From a virus, in IMG/VR virus record IMGVR_UViG_3300036781_000802, positions 1 through 38,014 of that record: DNA of 38,014 nt; one strand, 5' to 3'. Made by a program: the position numbers and the translations under genes. Position 1 is the stretch's first letter. Each line of letters begins with the position of its first letter. The notes beneath the pieces were generated by a model that worked only from the letters and a program-made list of their open reading frames with translations, did not search any database and was not told where the DNA came from. Positions 4,515 to 24,760 of the stretch are shown here, one piece after another.

Positions 4515-4695
4515 TACCGACCCAATTCCGTTTGGAAAACATGAAGGCGTGCCGATGCAGGATGTTCCCGCCTCATACCTTCACTACCTCTGGAAAAGCG
4601 GCATGAAGGACGACAAGCAATCAGCGGTTGCTGATTATATCCGTCGCAATTTGAGCGCACTGAAAAAAGAATTGCCGGATGCGATTTGGTCTTAA
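4507..4695 (+). CDS. DUF3820-like small protein
   Basis: A 62-residue protein from ATG 4507 (GGAGG at 4494-4498). The sequence has IPFGKHEGVPMQDVPASYLHYLW, split here as PFGKH, a P-SYLHYLW block and then DYIRRNL, which I recognise as the DUF3820 (putative quorum-sensing-regulated virulence factor) family. These small proteins are frequent in phages beside recombination nucleases and exonucleases, and this context repeats that pairing. Biochemical function is not established as far as I know. The gene overlaps the end of the nuclease gene by eight bases, suggesting coupled production. A GTG at 4504 is a possible alternative start adding one residue. Confidence 0.75.
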   Translation: MNDTDPIPFGKHEGVPMQDVPASYLHYLWKSGMKDDKQSAVADYIRRNLSALKKELPDAIWS

Positions 4696-4742
4696 TGCCC
4701 CGCATCCAAGAATCTCACCATGAACCTAACGAAAGAATAACC

Positions 4743-5219
4743 ATGCCTAAATTTGATTCAAAAGCTGAAAGCGTCTCGTTCGAACTCATAAACGGCGATT
4801 ATCCGTTTGAAATCGTCGCGGTCGATAACGCCATTTCGCAAGGCGAGAAAACACGCGGCTGCGACGTGCGCGAAGTGAAATTGAAGTTCTACCAGGATGC
4901 GACGTTCACCAAGCCGCTCGCGCAATGGACCGAAGATTTTATCGCCGCTGATAACTGCATCTGGAAATGGAGTGTGTTCGCAAAATGCATCGGCAACATG
5001 CTTGTCGATGGTGAGGAGTTCGATATCGACCATTCGTGGATCGGACGCCGCGGCTGGGCGACGTGCAAGCCGGAAGAGGATAAGGATAAGACCAAAATCG
5101 ACGCGCAGACGGGCCGCGTGAAGCGATACAACCGCGTCGCAGTGTTCATCACCAATAAGGGAATGCTGCCGCCGAATGTGAAAGCCGCGACGGAAGAGAA
5201 GGACGATTTGCCATTCTAA
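4743..5219 (+). CDS. SSB-like protein (DUF669-type) with DDLPF tip
   Basis: A 158-residue protein read from ATG 4743; the upstream in-frame ATGs overlap the previous gene. The N-terminal two-thirds have alternating strands (FDSKAESVSFELINGDYPFEIV, WTEDFIAADNCIWKW, GWATCKPEE) compatible with an OB-fold or the DUF669 family often found beside phage recombination genes. The last residues are acidic and end in KDDLPF, closely resembling the DDDIPF tip through which bacterial SSBs recruit partner proteins. It follows a RecT-like protein and a nuclease, so single-strand binding and partner recruitment during recombination and replication are the likely role. No direct binding evidence exists. Confidence 0.65.
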   Translation: MPKFDSKAESVSFELINGDYPFEIVAVDNAISQGEKTRGCDVREVKLKFYQDATFTKPLAQWTEDFIAADNCIWKWSVFAKCIGNMLVDGEEFDIDHSWIGRRGWATCKPEEDKDKTKIDAQTGRVKRYNRVAVFITNKGMLPPNVKAATEEKDDLPF

Positions 5220-5627: not shown

Positions 5628-5860
5628 AATACACCCGTTCCGAATCCAACGAGGTTATCGAGGTCAAAGGCTGCACGACCTGTCCGCATATGGTGAAGGA
5701 AGATGGACTCATGGTCTGTCGCGCTCCAGCCCCGAATGCAGCCGGTGAATTTAAGCCGCGCAAAAAGAAACTCACATCACATTGGGCAGGCGCTTATCAC
5801 GCGTCCTGTCCGCTGGCGATTAAGCCGGAGAGCGTGCCGGTTTTGAAAGACGTGTCGTAA
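5624..5860 (+). CDS. small putative zinc-binding protein
   Basis: A 78-residue protein from ATG 5624, overlapping the previous stop (ATGA) and ending in TAATG with the next gene. It has a CTTC pair near residues 17-20, a third Cys in MVCRAP and a fourth in HASCPL, a spacing that suits a structural zinc or redox site. A KPRKKKL stretch in the middle is strongly basic. No family was recognised. Position between a DnaA-like domain protein and a helicase-methyltransferase fusion suggests a role in DNA metabolism, by context only. Confidence 0.55.
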   Translation: MKYTRSESNEVIEVKGCTTCPHMVKEDGLMVCRAPAPNAAGEFKPRKKKLTSHWAGAYHASCPLAIKPESVPVLKDVS

Positions 5861-8475
5861 TGCAAACCTATACCGATTTCATTCTGAACAAGATTCCGCG
5901 TGCCGAGGTGGCGGGCTTCACGCCGAAATCCGAGCCGCATTCATCGCTGAAGGGTCATCAGCGCGACGTGGCGAGATGGATGTGCGTCGGCGGGCGACGG
6001 GCGTGTTTCATGGCGTTCGGCCTCGGTAAGACACGCGTTCATTTGCAAATTGCGCTCTGGTGCATCGAAGCAAATCCCGGCAAGAAATATCTCATCACCT
6101 GCCCGCTGGGTGTGCGCCATCAATTCATTCACGAGGACGGCCCGGCGATGGGTATCGCGATGACATTTTGTCGGACCGATGCGGAGGTTGATGCGGCGAC
6201 TACGCCGGTTGTCATCTGTAATTACGAGCCGGTGCGCGATGGGAAGATTACGCTCGATGATCGCTTTTGCGGCTGGGGCTTGGACGAGGCGAGCGTGTTG
6301 CGCTCGTTCGGTTCGAAGACGTATCAGAATTTCTTGAAGCTCGGACAGGCAGTAAAATATCGCTTTGTGTTCACGGCCACTCCCTCGCCGAATCGGCACA
6401 AGGAATTGATTCACTACGGCGGGTTCCTGGGGGTGATGGATACCGGGCAGGCTTTGACGCGATTCTTTCAACGCGATTCGTCCAAGGCGGGCAACCTGAC
6501 GCTGTATCCGCACATGGAGGAACAATTCTGGACGTGGCTCGCTTCATGGGCGGTGTTCATGCAGAAGCCTTCCGATTTGGGTTACTCGGATGAGGGCTAT
6601 GATTTGCCGCCGTTGAAAGTCCACTGGCATTGCGTCGCGGTCGACCACAAAAAGGCGTGGAAGCAGACCGACCGGCGCGGGCAGGCTGCTTTGTTTTTGG
6701 ACAAGTCCAGCGGGTTGAAGGATATCGCGGAGGTGAAGCGGGAGACGATTCTGGCGAGGTTGGAAAAGGCGCAAGAGATAATGCGCCACACTTGTCCAAC
6801 CTGCGGAGAAATACCACCTGTGGTTGACAGCCTCAAATGCGACGAGTGCGGCACGGACCTAGGATTCCGTCACTGGCTGCTCTGGCACGACCTAGAAGCC
6901 GAGCGTCACATCATCAAAAAAGAAATCCCCGGCGTGCGCACGGCGTACGGATCGCAAGACTTGGAAAAGCGCGAGGAAATCATTCTCGGTTTCAGCCGTG
7001 GCGAATTTCCGATTCTGGCAACCAAACCGTCGATAGCCGGGAGCGGCTGCAATTTTCAGCGGCATTGCTCGGATGCGATATTTCTAGGTAGCAGCTACAA
7101 GTTTAATGACTTCATTCAAAGTGTGCATCGCATTCAACGCTTCCAGCAGCCGCGCGAGGTCAACATCCACGTCATCTATTCCGAGTCCGAAGATCCCGTT
7201 ATCGCGTCACTCAAAACGAAATGGGCGCAACACAATGAACTGGTGGAGAAAATGTCGGCGCTTCTGCGGAAGTCCAAACTCGATTTAAATACTATGGAAA
7301 TCAAACGCACGATTGGCTGTGACCGCATCGAGATGGCGAGCGGCAAATTCAGGGCGGTGAACAATGATTGCGTGCTCGAAATGGAGACGTGGAAAGAGAA
7401 CGAGGCGCATTTGATCGTCACGTCCATTCCCTTCGGCAATCAGTATGAATATTCGCCGTCGTTTCAGGACTTCGGCCACAATCCGTCGAACGAGGAGTTT
7501 TTCAAGCAGATGGATTATGCCGTGCCGCATTGGCTGCGCGTGCTCAAGCCCGGCCGTCTTGCCTGCGTCCACGTCAAAGACCGGATTCGTTTCGGCAATG
7601 TGACCGGCAAAGGCGTGCCGACCGTGGACAGGTTCAGCGATAAAACCGCCGACTGTTTTGAAAAGCACGGGTTCAATTTTTTAGGCCGTATCACCATCGA
7701 TACCGACGTTGTGCGCGAGAACGCACAAACCTATCGCCTCGGCTGGAGCGAGAACGCGAAGGACTCGACGAAGATGGGTGTCGGCATGCCGGAATACGTG
7801 CTGCTGTTTCGCAAGCCGCACTCTGACCTATCTGCGGCCTACGCCGATTTGCCGGTCACGAAGGACAAGGAAACCTATATGAGGGCGCATTGGCAGGTCG
7901 ATGCGTCGGGTTTCTGGAAGTCGGACGGGAATCGTCTCCCGGATCCGGAAATCCTCGCTGGCATGCCGATGGACGACGTGCGGCGGCTGTGGATAGCGCA
8001 CGCCAAAACGCATGGCTACCAATGGCAAGAGCACGTCGCAATCGCGAAGGCCTTGGAGGAGCGCGATTACTTGCCGGCGGCGTTCATGTTGTTCCCGCCC
8101 ATCTCAAATCATCCTGGCGTCTGGACGGACATCACGCGCATGCGGGTTTTGAATTCCGAGCAGTCGCGACGGAATCAGGAAAATCATGTCTGCCCTTTGC
8201 AAATCGATATCGTGAATCGGTTGATCGGGCGCTACTCCAATCCGGGTGAAATCGTTTTAGACCCGTTCGCCGGAATTTTCACCGTGCCGTATTGCGCGAT
8301 TCACGCGGGTCGCATCGGCTGGGGCATCGAACTCTCGCACGATTATTGGCGCTGCGGCGTCGGCTATTGCGAGCAGGTGGAACGCGAGCATTGCATGCCT
8401 ACGTTGTTCGATATGCAGCGCGGCGGATTGCAGCCGGTAGCCACGAGCAAGGTTTTGAAAGAGGAGGCGGCATGA
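5860..8475 (+). CDS. SNF2-like helicase fused to beta-class DNA methyltransferase
   Basis: An 871-residue two-enzyme protein. Residues 1-480 are a superfamily 2 helicase: Walker A FGLGKT (53-58), DEAS box (142-145), TATPSPN (172-178), and a C-terminal lobe with SIAGSG and VHRIQR near 390-430. Cys312, Cys315, Cys327 and Cys330 form a zinc ribbon between the lobes. Residues 490-860 are a DNA amino-methyltransferase with catalytic motif IV TSIPF (521-525) ahead of motif I DPFAG (about 801-805) and a GWGIEL strand, the order of the beta class that makes N6-methyladenine or N4-methylcytosine. The usual catalytic (S/D)PP(Y/F) is here SIPF. Such a fusion could methylate phage DNA while translocating, protecting it from restriction. 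There is no restriction endonuclease next to it. Confidence 0.85.
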   Translation: MQTYTDFILNKIPRAEVAGFTPKSEPHSSLKGHQRDVARWMCVGGRRACFMAFGLGKTRVHLQIALWCIEANPGKKYLITCPLGVRHQFIHEDGPAMGIAMTFCRTDAEVDAATTPVVICNYEPVRDGKITLDDRFCGWGLDEASVLRSFGSKTYQNFLKLGQAVKYRFVFTATPSPNRHKELIHYGGFLGVMDTGQALTRFFQRDSSKAGNLTLYPHMEEQFWTWLASWAVFMQKPSDLGYSDEGYDLPPLKVHWHCVAVDHKKAWKQTDRRGQAALFLDKSSGLKDIAEVKRETILARLEKAQEIMRHTCPTCGEIPPVVDSLKCDECGTDLGFRHWLLWHDLEAERHIIKKEIPGVRTAYGSQDLEKREEIILGFSRGEFPILATKPSIAGSGCNFQRHCSDAIFLGSSYKFNDFIQSVHRIQRFQQPREVNIHVIYSESEDPVIASLKTKWAQHNELVEKMSALLRKSKLDLNTMEIKRTIGCDRIEMASGKFRAVNNDCVLEMETWKENEAHLIVTSIPFGNQYEYSPSFQDFGHNPSNEEFFKQMDYAVPHWLRVLKPGRLACVHVKDRIRFGNVTGKGVPTVDRFSDKTADCFEKHGFNFLGRITIDTDVVRENAQTYRLGWSENAKDSTKMGVGMPEYVLLFRKPHSDLSAAYADLPVTKDKETYMRAHWQVDASGFWKSDGNRLPDPEILAGMPMDDVRRLWIAHAKTHGYQWQEHVAIAKALEERDYLPAAFMLFPPISNHPGVWTDITRMRVLNSEQSRRNQENHVCPLQIDIVNRLIGRYSNPGEIVLDPFAGIFTVPYCAIHAGRIGWGIELSHDYWRCGVGYCEQVEREHCMPTLFDMQRGGLQPVATSKVLKEEAA

Positions 8476-8660
8476 CCTTCGAAACCCACTCTCTTTGGAA
8501 GCAATGCGAATCCGACACGCGCGACGCTTTGAATTTGATGCTCACGCCCAATGCTCCCGATGTGCTGCATAAAATCCTCGGCAAGCTGCGCACGGCGACG
8601 GCGGCCATGCAGGATTTGGAGCGGCAATCGAAGGGTAGAGGCGAAGGGCAGTGTCATTGA
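8472..8660 (+). CDS. 62-residue hypothetical protein
   Basis: A short protein whose ATG overlaps the stop of the helicase-methyltransferase gene (ATGA) and follows GAGGAGG, so translation is well supported. It is predicted to be almost entirely helical (LWKQCESDTRDALNLML, then a helix through ILGKLRTATAAMQDLERQ), and could form a small coiled coil. No family was recognised. Coupling to the fusion gene is the only functional hint. Confidence 0.5.
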   Translation: MTFETHSLWKQCESDTRDALNLMLTPNAPDVLHKILGKLRTATAAMQDLERQSKGRGEGQCH

Positions 8661-8664
8661 ATTT

Positions 8665-8763
8665 ATGGAAAAAGAAGAAACACACGCCGGAAGGCTCTAT
8701 GAAGTCTATTGCGCGTCGGTTGGCGGTCACGCCTTTAATGGCGAATCACGCTATTCAAAATAA
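8665..8763 (+). pseudogene. truncated copy of a small phage protein (YC-VGG-AFNG motif)
   Basis: From ATG 8665 this frame reads 32 residues, including LYEVYCASVGGHAFNG. I recognise this block from a widespread small phage protein that usually continues with DPLP-W-EF and some 20 further residues. Here it stops after ESRYSK, so it looks like the front part of that gene, cut by a mutation or deletion just before the next gene. An overlapping frame starting at GTG 8651 is open across the same bases but gives a low-complexity Lys-rich sequence without any motif, so I prefer this reading. Confidence 0.4.
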
Positions 8764-8767
8764 TTCC

Positions 8768-9094
8768 ATGGACTCAATAAACAAAGGCGTTATCGCCAAG
8801 CTTAAGGCCCGCGCTGAACGCGGTCATTCCAAATATGGAGTGACGATGGACCGCACGGATTTGAATCCGCAACAGTGGCTCACACACGCGCAAGAGGAGG
8901 CCATGGACTTGGCCGTGTATCTCGAAAAGCTGATTCGGCTGAATGGGGTTTGTAAGTGGGGGCCGACTTGGGAAGGCGGTCAGTATCCAACTGGATGCGA
9001 TAATGTTTTCGAATTCACCAATGACGGCATCAAAGAAAACGATTTCGAATTCTGCCCTTACTGCGGTAGAAAAATTGAGGAGGTAAAACTATGA
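8768..9094 (+). CDS. MazG-like NTP pyrophosphohydrolase with zinc ribbon
   Basis: A 108-residue protein. Residues 6-60 match the phage MazG-like/DUF550 pattern: RAERGHSKYG, then WLTHAQEEAMDLAVYLEKLI, where the EE-x-x-D helix provides metal ligands for cleaving NTPs or dNTPs to monophosphate plus pyrophosphate. The C-terminal 35 residues form a zinc ribbon ending in FCPYCGRKIEE, partnered with earlier Cys residues. The single-domain length agrees with phage homologues that adjust nucleotide pools or destroy alarmone or non-canonical nucleotides. I chose ATG 8768; GTG 8651 would give an extra 39 residues overlapping another motif-bearing frame. The ribosome-binding site is poor, so coupling to the upstream frame is likely. 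Confidence 0.65.
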   Translation: MDSINKGVIAKLKARAERGHSKYGVTMDRTDLNPQQWLTHAQEEAMDLAVYLEKLIRLNGVCKWGPTWEGGQYPTGCDNVFEFTNDGIKENDFEFCPYCGRKIEEVKL

Positions 9095-9285
9095 CCGTTA
9101 GAGATATGATCGAACAGCTTCAACGCTTTGACCAAAACTTTCGAGTTGTGGTTGAGAATGATATTCCGATTGCGGCTCACTGCACTGAGTGTGGTGAAGA
9201 AGTAAGGAGCGTAAATTTTCAAGGAGCCGTTGATCGTGTTTCGGTCGCTGGTGGACGTTGCGAGGTAGTGATTGATTTTGTATGA
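9091..9285 (+). CDS. small conserved phage protein
   Basis: A 64-residue protein whose ATG overlaps the upstream stop (ATGA). It starts MTVRDMIEQLQRFDQNFRVVVEND, given here in parts: MTVRDMIEQL, then FRVVVEND, and has a lone CTECG pair in the middle. The opening resembles a common phage and plasmid hypothetical type (T-x-ELIE-L--FDPD-EV) of unknown function. The end is a hydrophobic strand (CEVVIDFV), suggesting a compact alpha/beta fold. No functional assignment is possible. Confidence 0.55.
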   Translation: MTVRDMIEQLQRFDQNFRVVVENDIPIAAHCTECGEEVRSVNFQGAVDRVSVAGGRCEVVIDFV

Positions 9286-9476
9286 AGGCAATATTCACCG
9301 CGCAGGAACGCATCATTCGCAACCGTGCCAATCGAGCGAAGTGGCGCAAGGCGAATCGCGACATTCTCAATCTCAAACGGCGCAATCGCTATGCGACGAA
9401 TGCGGATTATCGAGAGAGAAAAAAGGCGGCTATCAAGGCGAAACGGAATCGCGTTCAGTTAAGGGAGGCGGCGTAA
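9282..9476 (+). CDS. small highly basic protein
   Basis: A 64-residue protein beginning in an ATGA overlap. More than a third of its residues are Arg or Lys, spread through what looks like one long helix (RNRANRAKWRKANRD, then RNRYATNADYRERKKAA). This composition indicates nucleic-acid binding. The N-x-x-YR-R-KKAA pattern resembles small HNH-like or zinc-less helical proteins found near phage helicases, but no nuclease residues are visible. It precedes the DECH helicase gene, to which it may be an accessory. Confidence 0.5.
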   Translation: MKAIFTAQERIIRNRANRAKWRKANRDILNLKRRNRYATNADYRERKKAAIKAKRNRVQLREAA

Positions 9477-22385: not shown

Positions 22386-22697
22386 ATGACACTAGCAGAA
22401 CAAATGGATGCGGACGTGGCGACGACGGAGCCTGAGGGTCAAATGACTTTCAAGTTCGCCGGCAAGTCTTACATCGGCCAATGCACGCCAATGGACGGCA
22501 AGCTGGTAATGGGGGAAGTGGGTTATGAATCGACTGCCGACTTTATGATGGCCGTGCGTCGCTCGCAGTTTGTCCTGCCCGATGTTCCGCCGGCAGACAA
22601 CGACGTGATCGAAATTGACGACGTGAAATACCAGGTGCAGGTGGTCCCGGACCAATACAACGTCGTTCTGAATTATGCGGTGAAACAATACACGTAA
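22386..22697 (+). CDS. head-tail joining protein (tentative)
   Basis: A 103-residue beta-rich protein with AGKSYIGQCTPMD, ADFMMAVRRSQF and a C-terminal strand-rich IEIDDVKYQVQVV. Its size and position immediately after the capsid protein fit the head-tail attachment proteins of lambda-like phages (FII-type). The match is positional. It overlaps the next gene in TAATG and starts only seven bases after the terminator, so it might be translated from read-through. Confidence 0.5.
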   Translation: MTLAEQMDADVATTEPEGQMTFKFAGKSYIGQCTPMDGKLVMGEVGYESTADFMMAVRRSQFVLPDVPPADNDVIEIDDVKYQVQVVPDQYNVVLNYAVKQYT

Positions 22698-23518
22698 TGT
22701 CCAACGAAACTCTAACCGCCGACTTGGATTACTCGAAAATCAATTCGAGAATCGAAGAGTTGCACGATGCCATTCAAGGGCAAGGCGGCGATGTGTCCAC
22801 GATTTTCGAAGATGAATCACGGTTGTTTCTCAAGCAGGTCATCCGCTTGACGCCTCCGAAAACCCGCCAGCAAGGCGAGGCGGCAATCGACCGGGATCTG
22901 ATGAAAATCTTTGAGCCCGTGAATGGCGATTTTCTGGACGACCTGATTATCGAGCACGGCGCGAACAATCTCGATGCGTGGATTACGACGGCCGGGGGCG
23001 AAAAGAAGCATCTCAAATGGACGTATCTCGACAACACGGGCGGGCCGATGGCCAATTTTCACCGAGAGAAACAAGGGAGTCGGGGTAGAACGTTTAATTT
23101 GAAACGGCAGAAAGACCCCAGCATTTGGTATGCGCCTTATGTGGTGAGCTATGAAAACTTTGCTGCTTATGCCAAACGTATAAAATCTCATGTTGGCAGA
23201 AGAAAGGCAGCATGGGCGGTTTCATTTACAAGCTTAGGCGGAAAGGTTGCCTCATGGATTGGCCGTCACGTCTCAGGGGCAAAGGGAGAATACCACAATT
23301 CTTACAACCCCGAGCGGCCATCGATTACAATCATCAATCGCGCGCCGGGGATTGAGCAGGATTTGAATGTTGTGCGCAGCGCCTTGCGTGTTCGCCAAGA
23401 GGCGATAACCAAACGCATTCGTCTAGTTCTTTCGGGTTATTCCAAAGACGTTGCGCGGGGAATTAAGATTCAGCGATGGGCAAAGGAATTGCCCGATTCG
23501 CGAATGGAGGTTTCCTAA
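22697..23518 (+). CDS. tail completion or minor tail protein
   Basis: A 273-residue protein with a predicted N-terminal helical region (SRIEELHDAI, then EDESRLFLKQVIRLTPPKT) and a C-terminal helix (RVRQEAITKRIRLVLSG). The helix followed by PPKTR resembles the opening of HK97 gp10-like tail completion proteins, though the whole is longer than usual. The middle (WYAPYVVSYENFAAYAKRI) is unassigned. Its stop overlaps the end of a reverse-strand gene by four bases. Confidence 0.55.
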   Translation: MSNETLTADLDYSKINSRIEELHDAIQGQGGDVSTIFEDESRLFLKQVIRLTPPKTRQQGEAAIDRDLMKIFEPVNGDFLDDLIIEHGANNLDAWITTAGGEKKHLKWTYLDNTGGPMANFHREKQGSRGRTFNLKRQKDPSIWYAPYVVSYENFAAYAKRIKSHVGRRKAAWAVSFTSLGGKVASWIGRHVSGAKGEYHNSYNPERPSITIINRAPGIEQDLNVVRSALRVRQEAITKRIRLVLSGYSKDVARGIKIQRWAKELPDSRMEVS

Positions 23519-23664
23519 TGTTTTTTCCATCTCACCAACGCCGCGGCCCGCGCCTGTTCTGGGGTGCGTGCTTTGCGCTTACCTTTTGCGTTACCACCTT
23601 TGGCCCCGCTTCGGCAGGAAAAATGGGAGGCATCGACGGATTGTTTGCAGCATGGGCATTTCAT
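23515..23664 (-). CDS. 49-residue CPCC zinc-motif protein on the reverse strand
   Basis: A reverse-strand gene that starts MKCPCCKQSVDAS and continues FSCRSGAKGGNAKGKRKAR, then TPEQARAAALVRWKKH. The CPCC pair and a later Cys suggest metal binding, and the Lys/Arg-rich tail suggests nucleic-acid binding. The frame is open from the ATG to TAG, with three bases between the ligase stop and this ATG, so it is downstream in the same unit as the ligase-like gene. Small proteins with a Gly-Lys-rich segment and a TPEQ-RAAA-RW end are frequent in bacterial and phage genomes. No function is known to me. Confidence 0.6.
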   Translation of the reverse strand: MKCPCCKQSVDASHFSCRSGAKGGNAKGKRKARTPEQARAAALVRWKKH

Positions 23665-23667
23665 AAT

Positions 23668-24243
23668 TCAAAAAATGGAATTCCAGTCCTCATTCAGAAG
23701 CCGCTTCACCTTGAGAATATTCGATGTGCGGCCACGTTCGTAGAATCGAATAGCAGGATTTCGGACAATAAGTCCCTCGCCCCCGCAAGCCTGAATGCGC
23801 TGCATGTCGGCAATCATTTCCTTTCGGCTGGAAACGACGGCGCACTTAACCACGAAGGCATTGCTGGAAACGAGACTGATAGATGCGATGCGCTCGGACC
23901 AGTTGCCGCTGGCGTTCGGGGCATCAAAGACAGCGAACCTGATGCCGGAATTGAACCGGCCAAAATTGACCGCATTCCGAGCGGCATTGAATCCACCGCG
24001 TCCCGCCCAAATTTCGCCGTCAAGATGGCACGCGGGCAACCCCTCAGTGAACCATTCCGGGGCGTCAATTACTTTTCCGCCACGCGTCCAGAACCGGGAG
24101 CCATCCCAATAAGCCCGGCAACCATCCAGTTTTTCACTGGCAAACCACCCGTCAACGCATTGGCCAGACCAATCAGCGCCAAGAGTCATTTGCTTTTCGT
24201 TCACGGTCAAAATATAGCGCAAGGCCTTGTGTATTGCAACCAT
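23668..24243 (-). CDS. ATP-dependent DNA ligase adenylation domain, OB-fold missing
   Basis: A 191-residue protein with the covalent nucleotidyltransferase motifs of small DNA ligases: motif I EKLDG with catalytic Lys38, the RAYWDG stretch, LDGEIW (74-79), FAVFDAP (103-109), motif IV GGEGLIVR (154-161) and motif V ILKVK (176-180). Only eleven residues follow motif V, whereas ligases normally continue for about 80-100 residues with an OB-fold holding motif VI. It could be a truncated ligase, a stand-alone adenylyltransferase, or use a partner. It is coded on the reverse strand inside the structural operon. ATG 24189 is an alternative start. Confidence 0.8.
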   Translation of the reverse strand: MVAIHKALRYILTVNEKQMTLGADWSGQCVDGWFASEKLDGCRAYWDGSRFWTRGGKVIDAPEWFTEGLPACHLDGEIWAGRGGFNAARNAVNFGRFNSGIRFAVFDAPNASGNWSERIASISLVSSNAFVVKCAVVSSRKEMIADMQRIQACGGEGLIVRNPAIRFYERGRTSNILKVKRLLNEDWNSIF

Positions 24244-24259
24244 AAAATGGGGGTATCAA

Positions 24260-24760
24260 ATGGCTAAACCTCCGATGGAAATTTACCAGTTCGAGGACGA
24301 ATACGAACGCGCCGTAGCCGCGTGGCTGCTGGCGAACGGCGTCAACGATCCGAAGGTGCAGCGCCAAGACGATATCAAACTCGAAGATGGCAGTAAACGC
24401 ACGCTCACAACGCCGCGCGTCGAAGTGAAGTTCATGTGCTCAGGCCTGACTCGTGAACATTATCACGTCGTTACCCAGACCGGCGCGACGTGGCTGGATT
24501 TTGCCGACGGCGTTCTCTATCTGAAAATCGTCACCCGGCGCGACGTAAAAGAGCCGTCGCATTCCTACCTGCGCGGGCTCTGCCGTTACGCGATGCAATT
24601 CGCATCGTCCATCAGCGGCAAAATGAAATATCACAAAATCGAAAAGGTGCTCGAATCCAGCAGCACCTCGACCATGGAAGCGGACAAGAATCACGACGTT
24701 TCCGCCCTCAGTTTCAACACCACACTCCGCATCCGTCCCGAATTTTTTCCAACCAGCTAA
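24260..24760 (+). CDS. tail protein of unknown subtype
   Basis: A 166-residue protein read from ATG 24260, with GGGGG at 24249-24253 as a weak ribosome-binding site. It has helix FEDEYERAVAAWLLANGV followed by strands VEVKFMCSG, WLDFADGVLYLKIV and LSFNTTLRIRP. It lies between tail completion and tail tube genes and is likely a tail terminator or joining protein by position. It starts 16 bases from the reverse ligase start. No specific family was recognised. Confidence 0.5.
   Translation: MAKPPMEIYQFEDEYERAVAAWLLANGVNDPKVQRQDDIKLEDGSKRTLTTPRVEVKFMCSGLTREHYHVVTQTGATWLDFADGVLYLKIVTRRDVKEPSHSYLRGLCRYAMQFASSISGKMKYHKIEKVLESSSTSTMEADKNHDVSALSFNTTLRIRPEFFPTS

Follow-up and report, generated by a model that had tools for sequence, protein, structure and literature searches.

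A Lig E-type nucleotidyltransferase without an OB domain, encoded antisense among phage structural genes

DNA ligases have been described as always consisting of a nucleotidyltransferase (NTase) domain followed by an OB domain, in a survey that kept only sequences of 250–370 residues and judged those with the NTase domain alone to be apparently partial (PMC8455567). In the DNA-bound Lig E of Alteromonas, the NTase side holds the AMP and the nick through residues S32, K34, R39, R50, E73, F133, M191, R203, K209 and K211 (PMC6144786), and in ATP-dependent ligases motif VI of the OB domain helps to reorient the β and γ phosphates in step 1 (PMC6698739). In the trypanosome editing ligases (TbREL1/KREPA2) the OB fold is supplied in trans (PMC4366279), and truncated T4 RNA ligase 2 joins pre-adenylated donors and retains some self-adenylation (PMC3514331). 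These two precedents show that an NTase domain can still work without the C-terminal half. Doherty and Wigley are said to have found in 1999 that the isolated NTase domain of T7 ligase is adenylated, to a reduced but real extent.

A literature search on phage ligases lacking the OB domain returned no papers. The phage locus described below encodes a Lig E-type NTase domain with intact motifs, belongs to a clade in which the OB domain is consistently absent, and recurs in antisense placement.

The antisense gene pair

The window, that is, the whole stretch of DNA analysed, is a linear virus record of 38,014 bases. An earlier note on it had described two minus-strand genes inside the structural operon, and both reading frames are found where it placed them: a ligase-like ORF at 23668–24243 (−), with an ATG start and 191 residues, which encodes a Lig E-type NTase domain without an OB domain, and a CPCC ORF of 49 residues at 23515–23664 (−), whose ATG begins 3 bases past the ligase stop and which overlaps the forward gene at 22697–23518 (+) convergently by 4 bases. 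The remaining genes had been said to be all forward, and this is true among the genes examined, which cover all but the last ~2 kb. As for the claim that the pair sits between two tail-joining genes, both of these are indeed located in the interval from the major capsid gene (phrog_1005, E=2e-30) to the tape measure, but their “tail-joining” nature is a positional inference: from its position the gene at 22697–23518 (+) encodes a probable tail-completion or neck protein and that at 24260–24760 (+) a probable tail-terminator, and neither has a confident Pfam or PHROG match.

The ligase-like gene is probably shorter than its ORF. Its relatives begin with MNETQMTLG, MNENEMTLG or MIxEKxMTLG, or, when the start is GTG, with VNETNMTLA or VNTDELAHG; in the window the corresponding VNEKQMTLG lies 13 codons inside the reported ORF. 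Because the family N-terminus aligns with V14 of the 191-residue ORF, the start is probably the GTG at 24204, which would give a gene at 23668–24204 (−) of 178 residues plus the stop (MNEKQMTLG...). The 16-base divergent gap given before is arithmetically right up to the ATG at 24260, but it becomes 55 bases with the probable GTG start. A sigma-70-like promoter match (TTGCAA-17-TATATT; 24211–24239, −) ends 7 bases upstream of that GTG; it is a weak match, one being found where 0.4 are expected by chance.

Two other features that overlap the gene were rejected. The long ORF at 23476–24267 (+, 263 aa) owes all its matches to being antisense to the conserved NTase ORF, and a tRNA-Ser reported by ARAGORN at 23935–24012 (−), inside the NTase gene, was judged a false positive, with 18.7 bits in Rfam against a gathering score of 47; the fold z-score of this candidate is −0.93, and it is missing from the NTase genes of relatives. 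Elsewhere in the window, positions 5860–8475 encode an 871-residue protein in which an SNF2-type helicase is fused to a DNA methylase domain of the N6/N4 kind.

Extent of the single-domain form

The 191-residue ORF matches the Lig E model NF006592 (PRK09125) with E=6.6e-43 over profile positions 26–206 of 283; its score of 146.7 bits lies below the curated cut-off of 200, and profile positions 207–283 are missing. Matches are also found to the solved structures 8u6x (E=1.4e-28), 6gdr (7.1e-21) and 4d05 (2.8e-17) and to phrog_114, an ATP-dependent DNA ligase family (E=3.3e-20). The Lig E models and structures cover the whole NTase domain and nothing past it. Judged by these matches, the ligase identity of the ORF is far beyond chance. 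The characteristic residues of motifs I, III, IIIa, IV and V are present (K38, E77, F106, E156, K178 and K180, in the 191-residue numbering): motif I, SEKLDG, with the nucleophilic lysine K38, lies at 24121–24138 (−), and motif V, ILKVK, with K178 and K180, at 23704–23718 (−). The protein had been said to keep motifs I to V and to end eleven residues later, and so it does, the stop codon following 11 residues past K180 and the OB domain being missing.

The AlphaFold2 model of the window NTase, built from a 20-sequence alignment (pLDDT 93.7, pTM 0.88), has the adenylation-domain fold of Lig E. When this model was used in a structure search, three Lig E structures came first (4d05, 6gdr and 8u6x, with TMq of 0.87, 0.84 and 0.83, respectively), followed by other DNA ligases, and there was no RNA ligase or capping enzyme in the top 50 matches. 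The protein is not filed here as a Lig E ligase because the OB domain that defines these enzymes was looked for and is absent; it is a Lig E-derived protein of an NTase-only family, which may function as ligases do, one half being absent or borrowed.

Single-sequence scans of viral and genome contigs found no relatives; alignment-based scans of both were needed, and these gave well over 150 Lig E-related loci. The ORF ends of these loci fall into two classes. The large class runs at least 64 residues past motif V, which leaves room for an OB domain, and the nearest relatives of the window protein (L164, L084, L004, L005, L006, L007, L008, L010, L013, L167, L173, L175, L041 and L189) end 1–20 residues past it. 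Also short are L180, L181, a protein of an Akkermansia MAG (L159), and L194 and L207, which belong to one further genome from the phylum of that MAG; L176 has a 53-residue tail past motif V that is not OB-like. The proteins of the OB-less clade are about 165–220 residues long.

A tree built from 97 NTase domains unites 16 short proteins, the window's among them, in one clade with a support of 100/99, a stem of 0.54 changes per column and no full-length protein inside. A single clade for all 19 short proteins of this tree is not rejected (p-AU 0.42). L194 and L207 are closer to full-length proteins in a quick tree, and therefore a second loss of the OB domain is possible in these two. The PF14743 OB domain is found in none of 20 carrier records or genomes (the window, searched in any frame, and 19 others), and as a control six of six full-length Lig E proteins scored above the cut-off. 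Among viral contigs outside the short class, L015, L018, L045 and L064 carry full-length Lig E genes with the OB domain, which bears on the claim that Lig E lacks a phage missing link.

The possibility that close relatives would have a longer, frameshift-corrected ligase had been raised as what would undo the first description; none is longer, and the close relatives are all equally short. Since they share the end point and the window holds no OB remnant, a frameshift or sequencing error is rejected. That the gene is a decayed or truncated ligase pseudogene is highly improbable: the protein does stop abruptly past motif V, the copy in L006 is degenerate and the survey cited above took NT-only sequences for partial ones (PMC8455567), but many divergent phages (40–54% identity) have the same end point and intact motifs in a single clade, and an OB remnant is missing from the window in any frame. 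With the same short version in at least a dozen other phages, the short form is a stable and apparently undescribed type of enzyme, not a broken gene. Searches of 50,697 annotated phage records yielded no OB-less member.

Gene placement and the small neighbouring gene

A moron is defined as a gene that appears inserted in the late operon when related phages are compared (PMC2629481). In 11 carriers (the window, L165, L176, L180, L181, L164, L175, L178, L167, L168 and L169) the NTase gene is antisense to the neighbouring phage genes, which are mostly structural, and in five (L166, L171, L173, L174 and L006) it has the same sense as its neighbours. The slot between the homologues of 22697–23518 and 24260–24760 is occupied in the window, L165, L166 and L176, and in L178 and L180 one flank of it is recognised. 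In L006, whose terminase (TerL) is 70% identical to that of the window, the NTase gene nevertheless lies between the terminase and gpW, and in L002, with a capsid protein 44% identical, the window's slot has no gene and is apparently empty. Mapped on the tree, these positions amount to about six slot changes, with coarse slot labels and 12 carriers, and three orientation changes.

One genome has two NTase copies, each directly behind a different tyrosine integrase gene (regions L207:15–2046 and L194:194–2049). In the second of them, a direct repeat of 25 bases, 24 of them identical (L194:1458–1482 and 2021–2045), brackets the OB-less NTase gene behind the integrase; the integrase gene ends in one copy of the repeat and the NTase gene in the other, as would be seen had the NTase gene been inserted as a cassette. 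Integrases occur in three of 17 viral carrier records, several of which are fragments, and the window has none; apart from the window, 13 of the 16 viral carrier records, many of them fragments, gave no integrase either. The window also lacks lysogeny genes.

The proposal that the locus is a moron agrees with these maps, in that the gene is antisense and its slot differs between related phages. Its recurrence in antisense within structural operons, together with several slot changes, is therefore described as moron-like and suggests an accessory gene, which may be expressed independently of the late operon. Three neighbouring features deserve mention in their own right. In L165 the tail-completion ORF (7944–9422) meets no stop where it crosses the NTase gene in antisense, so that 492 codons stay open; in L180 the tail-terminator homologue (6896–7942, 348 aa) resembles a tandem duplication of its own domain; and on a Verrucomicrobia MAG contig a tRNA-Ser gene (L084:3471–3562) lies 1.3 kb from the NTase gene, possibly at a prophage boundary.

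The host phylum is likely the Verrucomicrobiota, as the capsid and terminase matches suggest: the window capsid protein has a relative, 40% identical, in a genome from the phylum of the Akkermansia carrier; among annotated phages, the terminase finds its best full-length match in Verrucomicrobia phage P8625, at 24%.

The second gene of the pair encodes the protein MKCPCCKQSVDASHFSCRSGAKGGNAKGKRKARTPEQARAAALVRWKKH, with a zinc-knuckle-like start (CX2CX7HX2C) and a basic tail (KGG/ARxAAxxRW); the start could bind zinc, and the remainder is a small basic motif. The relatives of the ligase-like gene come without it, and its only detectable relative is a stretch of 24 residues, 71% identical, in another phage with no ligase nearby. 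It had been suggested that this protein replaces the missing domain, so that the two genes would make a split ligase whose DNA-binding part is the CPCC protein. Its gene follows the ligase stop by 3 bases, its sequence is basic with a zinc-knuckle-like start, KREPA2 likewise has zinc fingers, and small basic, zinc-ribbon or HTH genes, unrelated to CPCC, adjoin the NTase gene in L164, L171, L169 and L174. However, 49 residues are too few for an OB fold, no CPCC-like or similar small neighbour is recognised in nine carriers, and the C-terminal motif recurs in an unrelated phage gene with no ligase close by. A split ligase of this kind is thus very doubtful, and as a general explanation CPCC is rejected as a surrogate OB domain, since it is not recognised beside most relatives of the NTase and its own relative lies away from ligases; it is at most an optional companion of the NTase. 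There is no conserved partner gene beside the NTase among the carriers, in which the search for an OB domain covered the family PF14743. The phage-encoded OB-fold SSB (4686–5219, phrog_2698) was also considered as a partner in trans, and was rejected because no solved-structure match supports it.

Predicted activity and comparison with known systems

The residues that hold the AMP and the nick in Lig E are largely kept in the OB-less proteins. The equivalents of K34, R39 and R203 are present in 19 of 19, and those of R50 (one K), E73, F133 (one Y) and K211 in 18 of 19; at the K209 position, the first lysine of motif V, 14 of these proteins have K and the other 5 have R, whereas 78 of 78 full-length proteins have K. 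Motifs I, III and IV retain their catalytic residues in 18/19 OB-less members. In window numbering, R43 and R54, which contact the nick, and R172, which contacts the DNA, vary little or not at all. What has been lost is the OB half, which completes the DNA clamp and bears motif VI. Since this motif aids step 1, the lone NTase may self-adenylate poorly.

The best explanation, to which we give a probability of about one half, is that the protein belongs to the Lig E lineage, is complete with the one domain that it naturally has (NTase-only), is a moron-like accessory of tailed phages, probably of Verrucomicrobiota, and acts on DNA 5′-phosphates. It would react with ATP to form lysyl-AMP on K38, and the adenylated enzyme would then act on 5′-phosphates at DNA nicks or ends. 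Sealing would be either slow, by the enzyme on its own, or helped by an OB-fold partner supplied in trans by the host or the phage, by analogy with the trypanosome editing ligases, and the role would be that of an accessory repair or end-modifying enzyme expressed apart from the late operon. The conserved AMP- and nick-binding residues favour a DNA 5′-phosphate over a non-DNA substrate; a self-adenylating enzyme on DNA 5′-phosphates, working by itself or aided by an OB domain in trans, is the most likely of the predicted activities. Against this explanation count the gene context, in which there are no DNA-repair genes around the NTase, the possibly poor self-adenylation of a lone NTase, the R in place of the first motif V lysine in 5 of the 19, the lack of a conserved partner gene and the absence of lysogeny genes from the window.

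It is unlikely, by comparison, that the protein is a phage-borne descendant of a ligase, now a transferase for a new target, which adenylylates a protein, an RNA end or a small molecule and spreads as antisense cargo, possibly for counter-defence or superinfection exclusion. The consistent absence of the DNA-clamping half fits such a repurposing, as do the cargo-like placement of the gene, twice directly behind an integrase, and the clade-specific residues that stand in place of Lig E ones (E16, M19, D24, C42, W52, A80, A88, A91 and G95); but R43, R54 and R172 are kept, and the best structural matches are to Lig E and other DNA ligases. The window protein also has no PADLOC family match, and membership of a defence system was rejected on this ground and on the three marginal, single-member matches of its relatives.

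A protein without turnover, which would attach to nicks or DNA ends so as to shield or mark them, for instance against host nucleases, is improbable. The C-shaped clamp that Lig E forms around DNA (PMC6144786) cannot form without the OB domain, and the sister of the window NTase on the tree (L006:2354–2908) has lost residues of motif I (now SSKLWDC) and of motif III (now LDGG) while its reading frame is still open, so that this one member may be inactive; the near-universal retention of the catalytic residues, however, argues against shielding as the function of the family.

A clade of complete, OB-less phage proteins with conserved catalytic residues challenges the rule that DNA ligases consist of NTase plus OB, and with it nature provides a way to test why ligases need the OB domain; it could also represent the smallest natural nucleic-acid adenylyltransferase of the Lig E lineage. 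In addition, a single cargo gene is seen here to recur in antisense within tail operons.

The gene resembles the phage morons, such as the ant moron of P22-like phages, which are likewise late-operon insertions seen across related phages (PMC2629481); it differs from them in that the NTase occupies different slots in different carriers and that its own promoter, its expression and the lysogeny of this phage are putative. With the Lig E ATP-dependent DNA ligases (PF01068 + PF14743; NF006592/PRK09125; PDB 8u6x, 6gdr, 4d05) it shares an NTase homologous from end to end, motifs I–V and the nick-contacting arginines, whereas it has neither the OB domain nor motif VI, scores below the family cut-off, is phage-encoded, and has a short N-terminus with no room for a leader peptide. 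Like TbREL1 and TbREL2 of Trypanosoma, which work with KREPA2 and KREPA1, it has an NTase with no OB in the same protein, the trypanosome enzymes obtaining their OB fold in trans (PMC4366279); those enzymes, however, belong to the T4 Rnl2 type of RNA ligases and have a C-terminal domain of their own, while an OB partner of the phage protein is hypothetical. Truncated T4 RNA ligase 2, finally, is similar in its C-terminal deletion, despite which it can still join donors that are pre-adenylated and has some self-adenylation left (PMC3514331), but it is an engineered RNA ligase, whereas the phage protein is a natural architecture of a DNA-ligase lineage.
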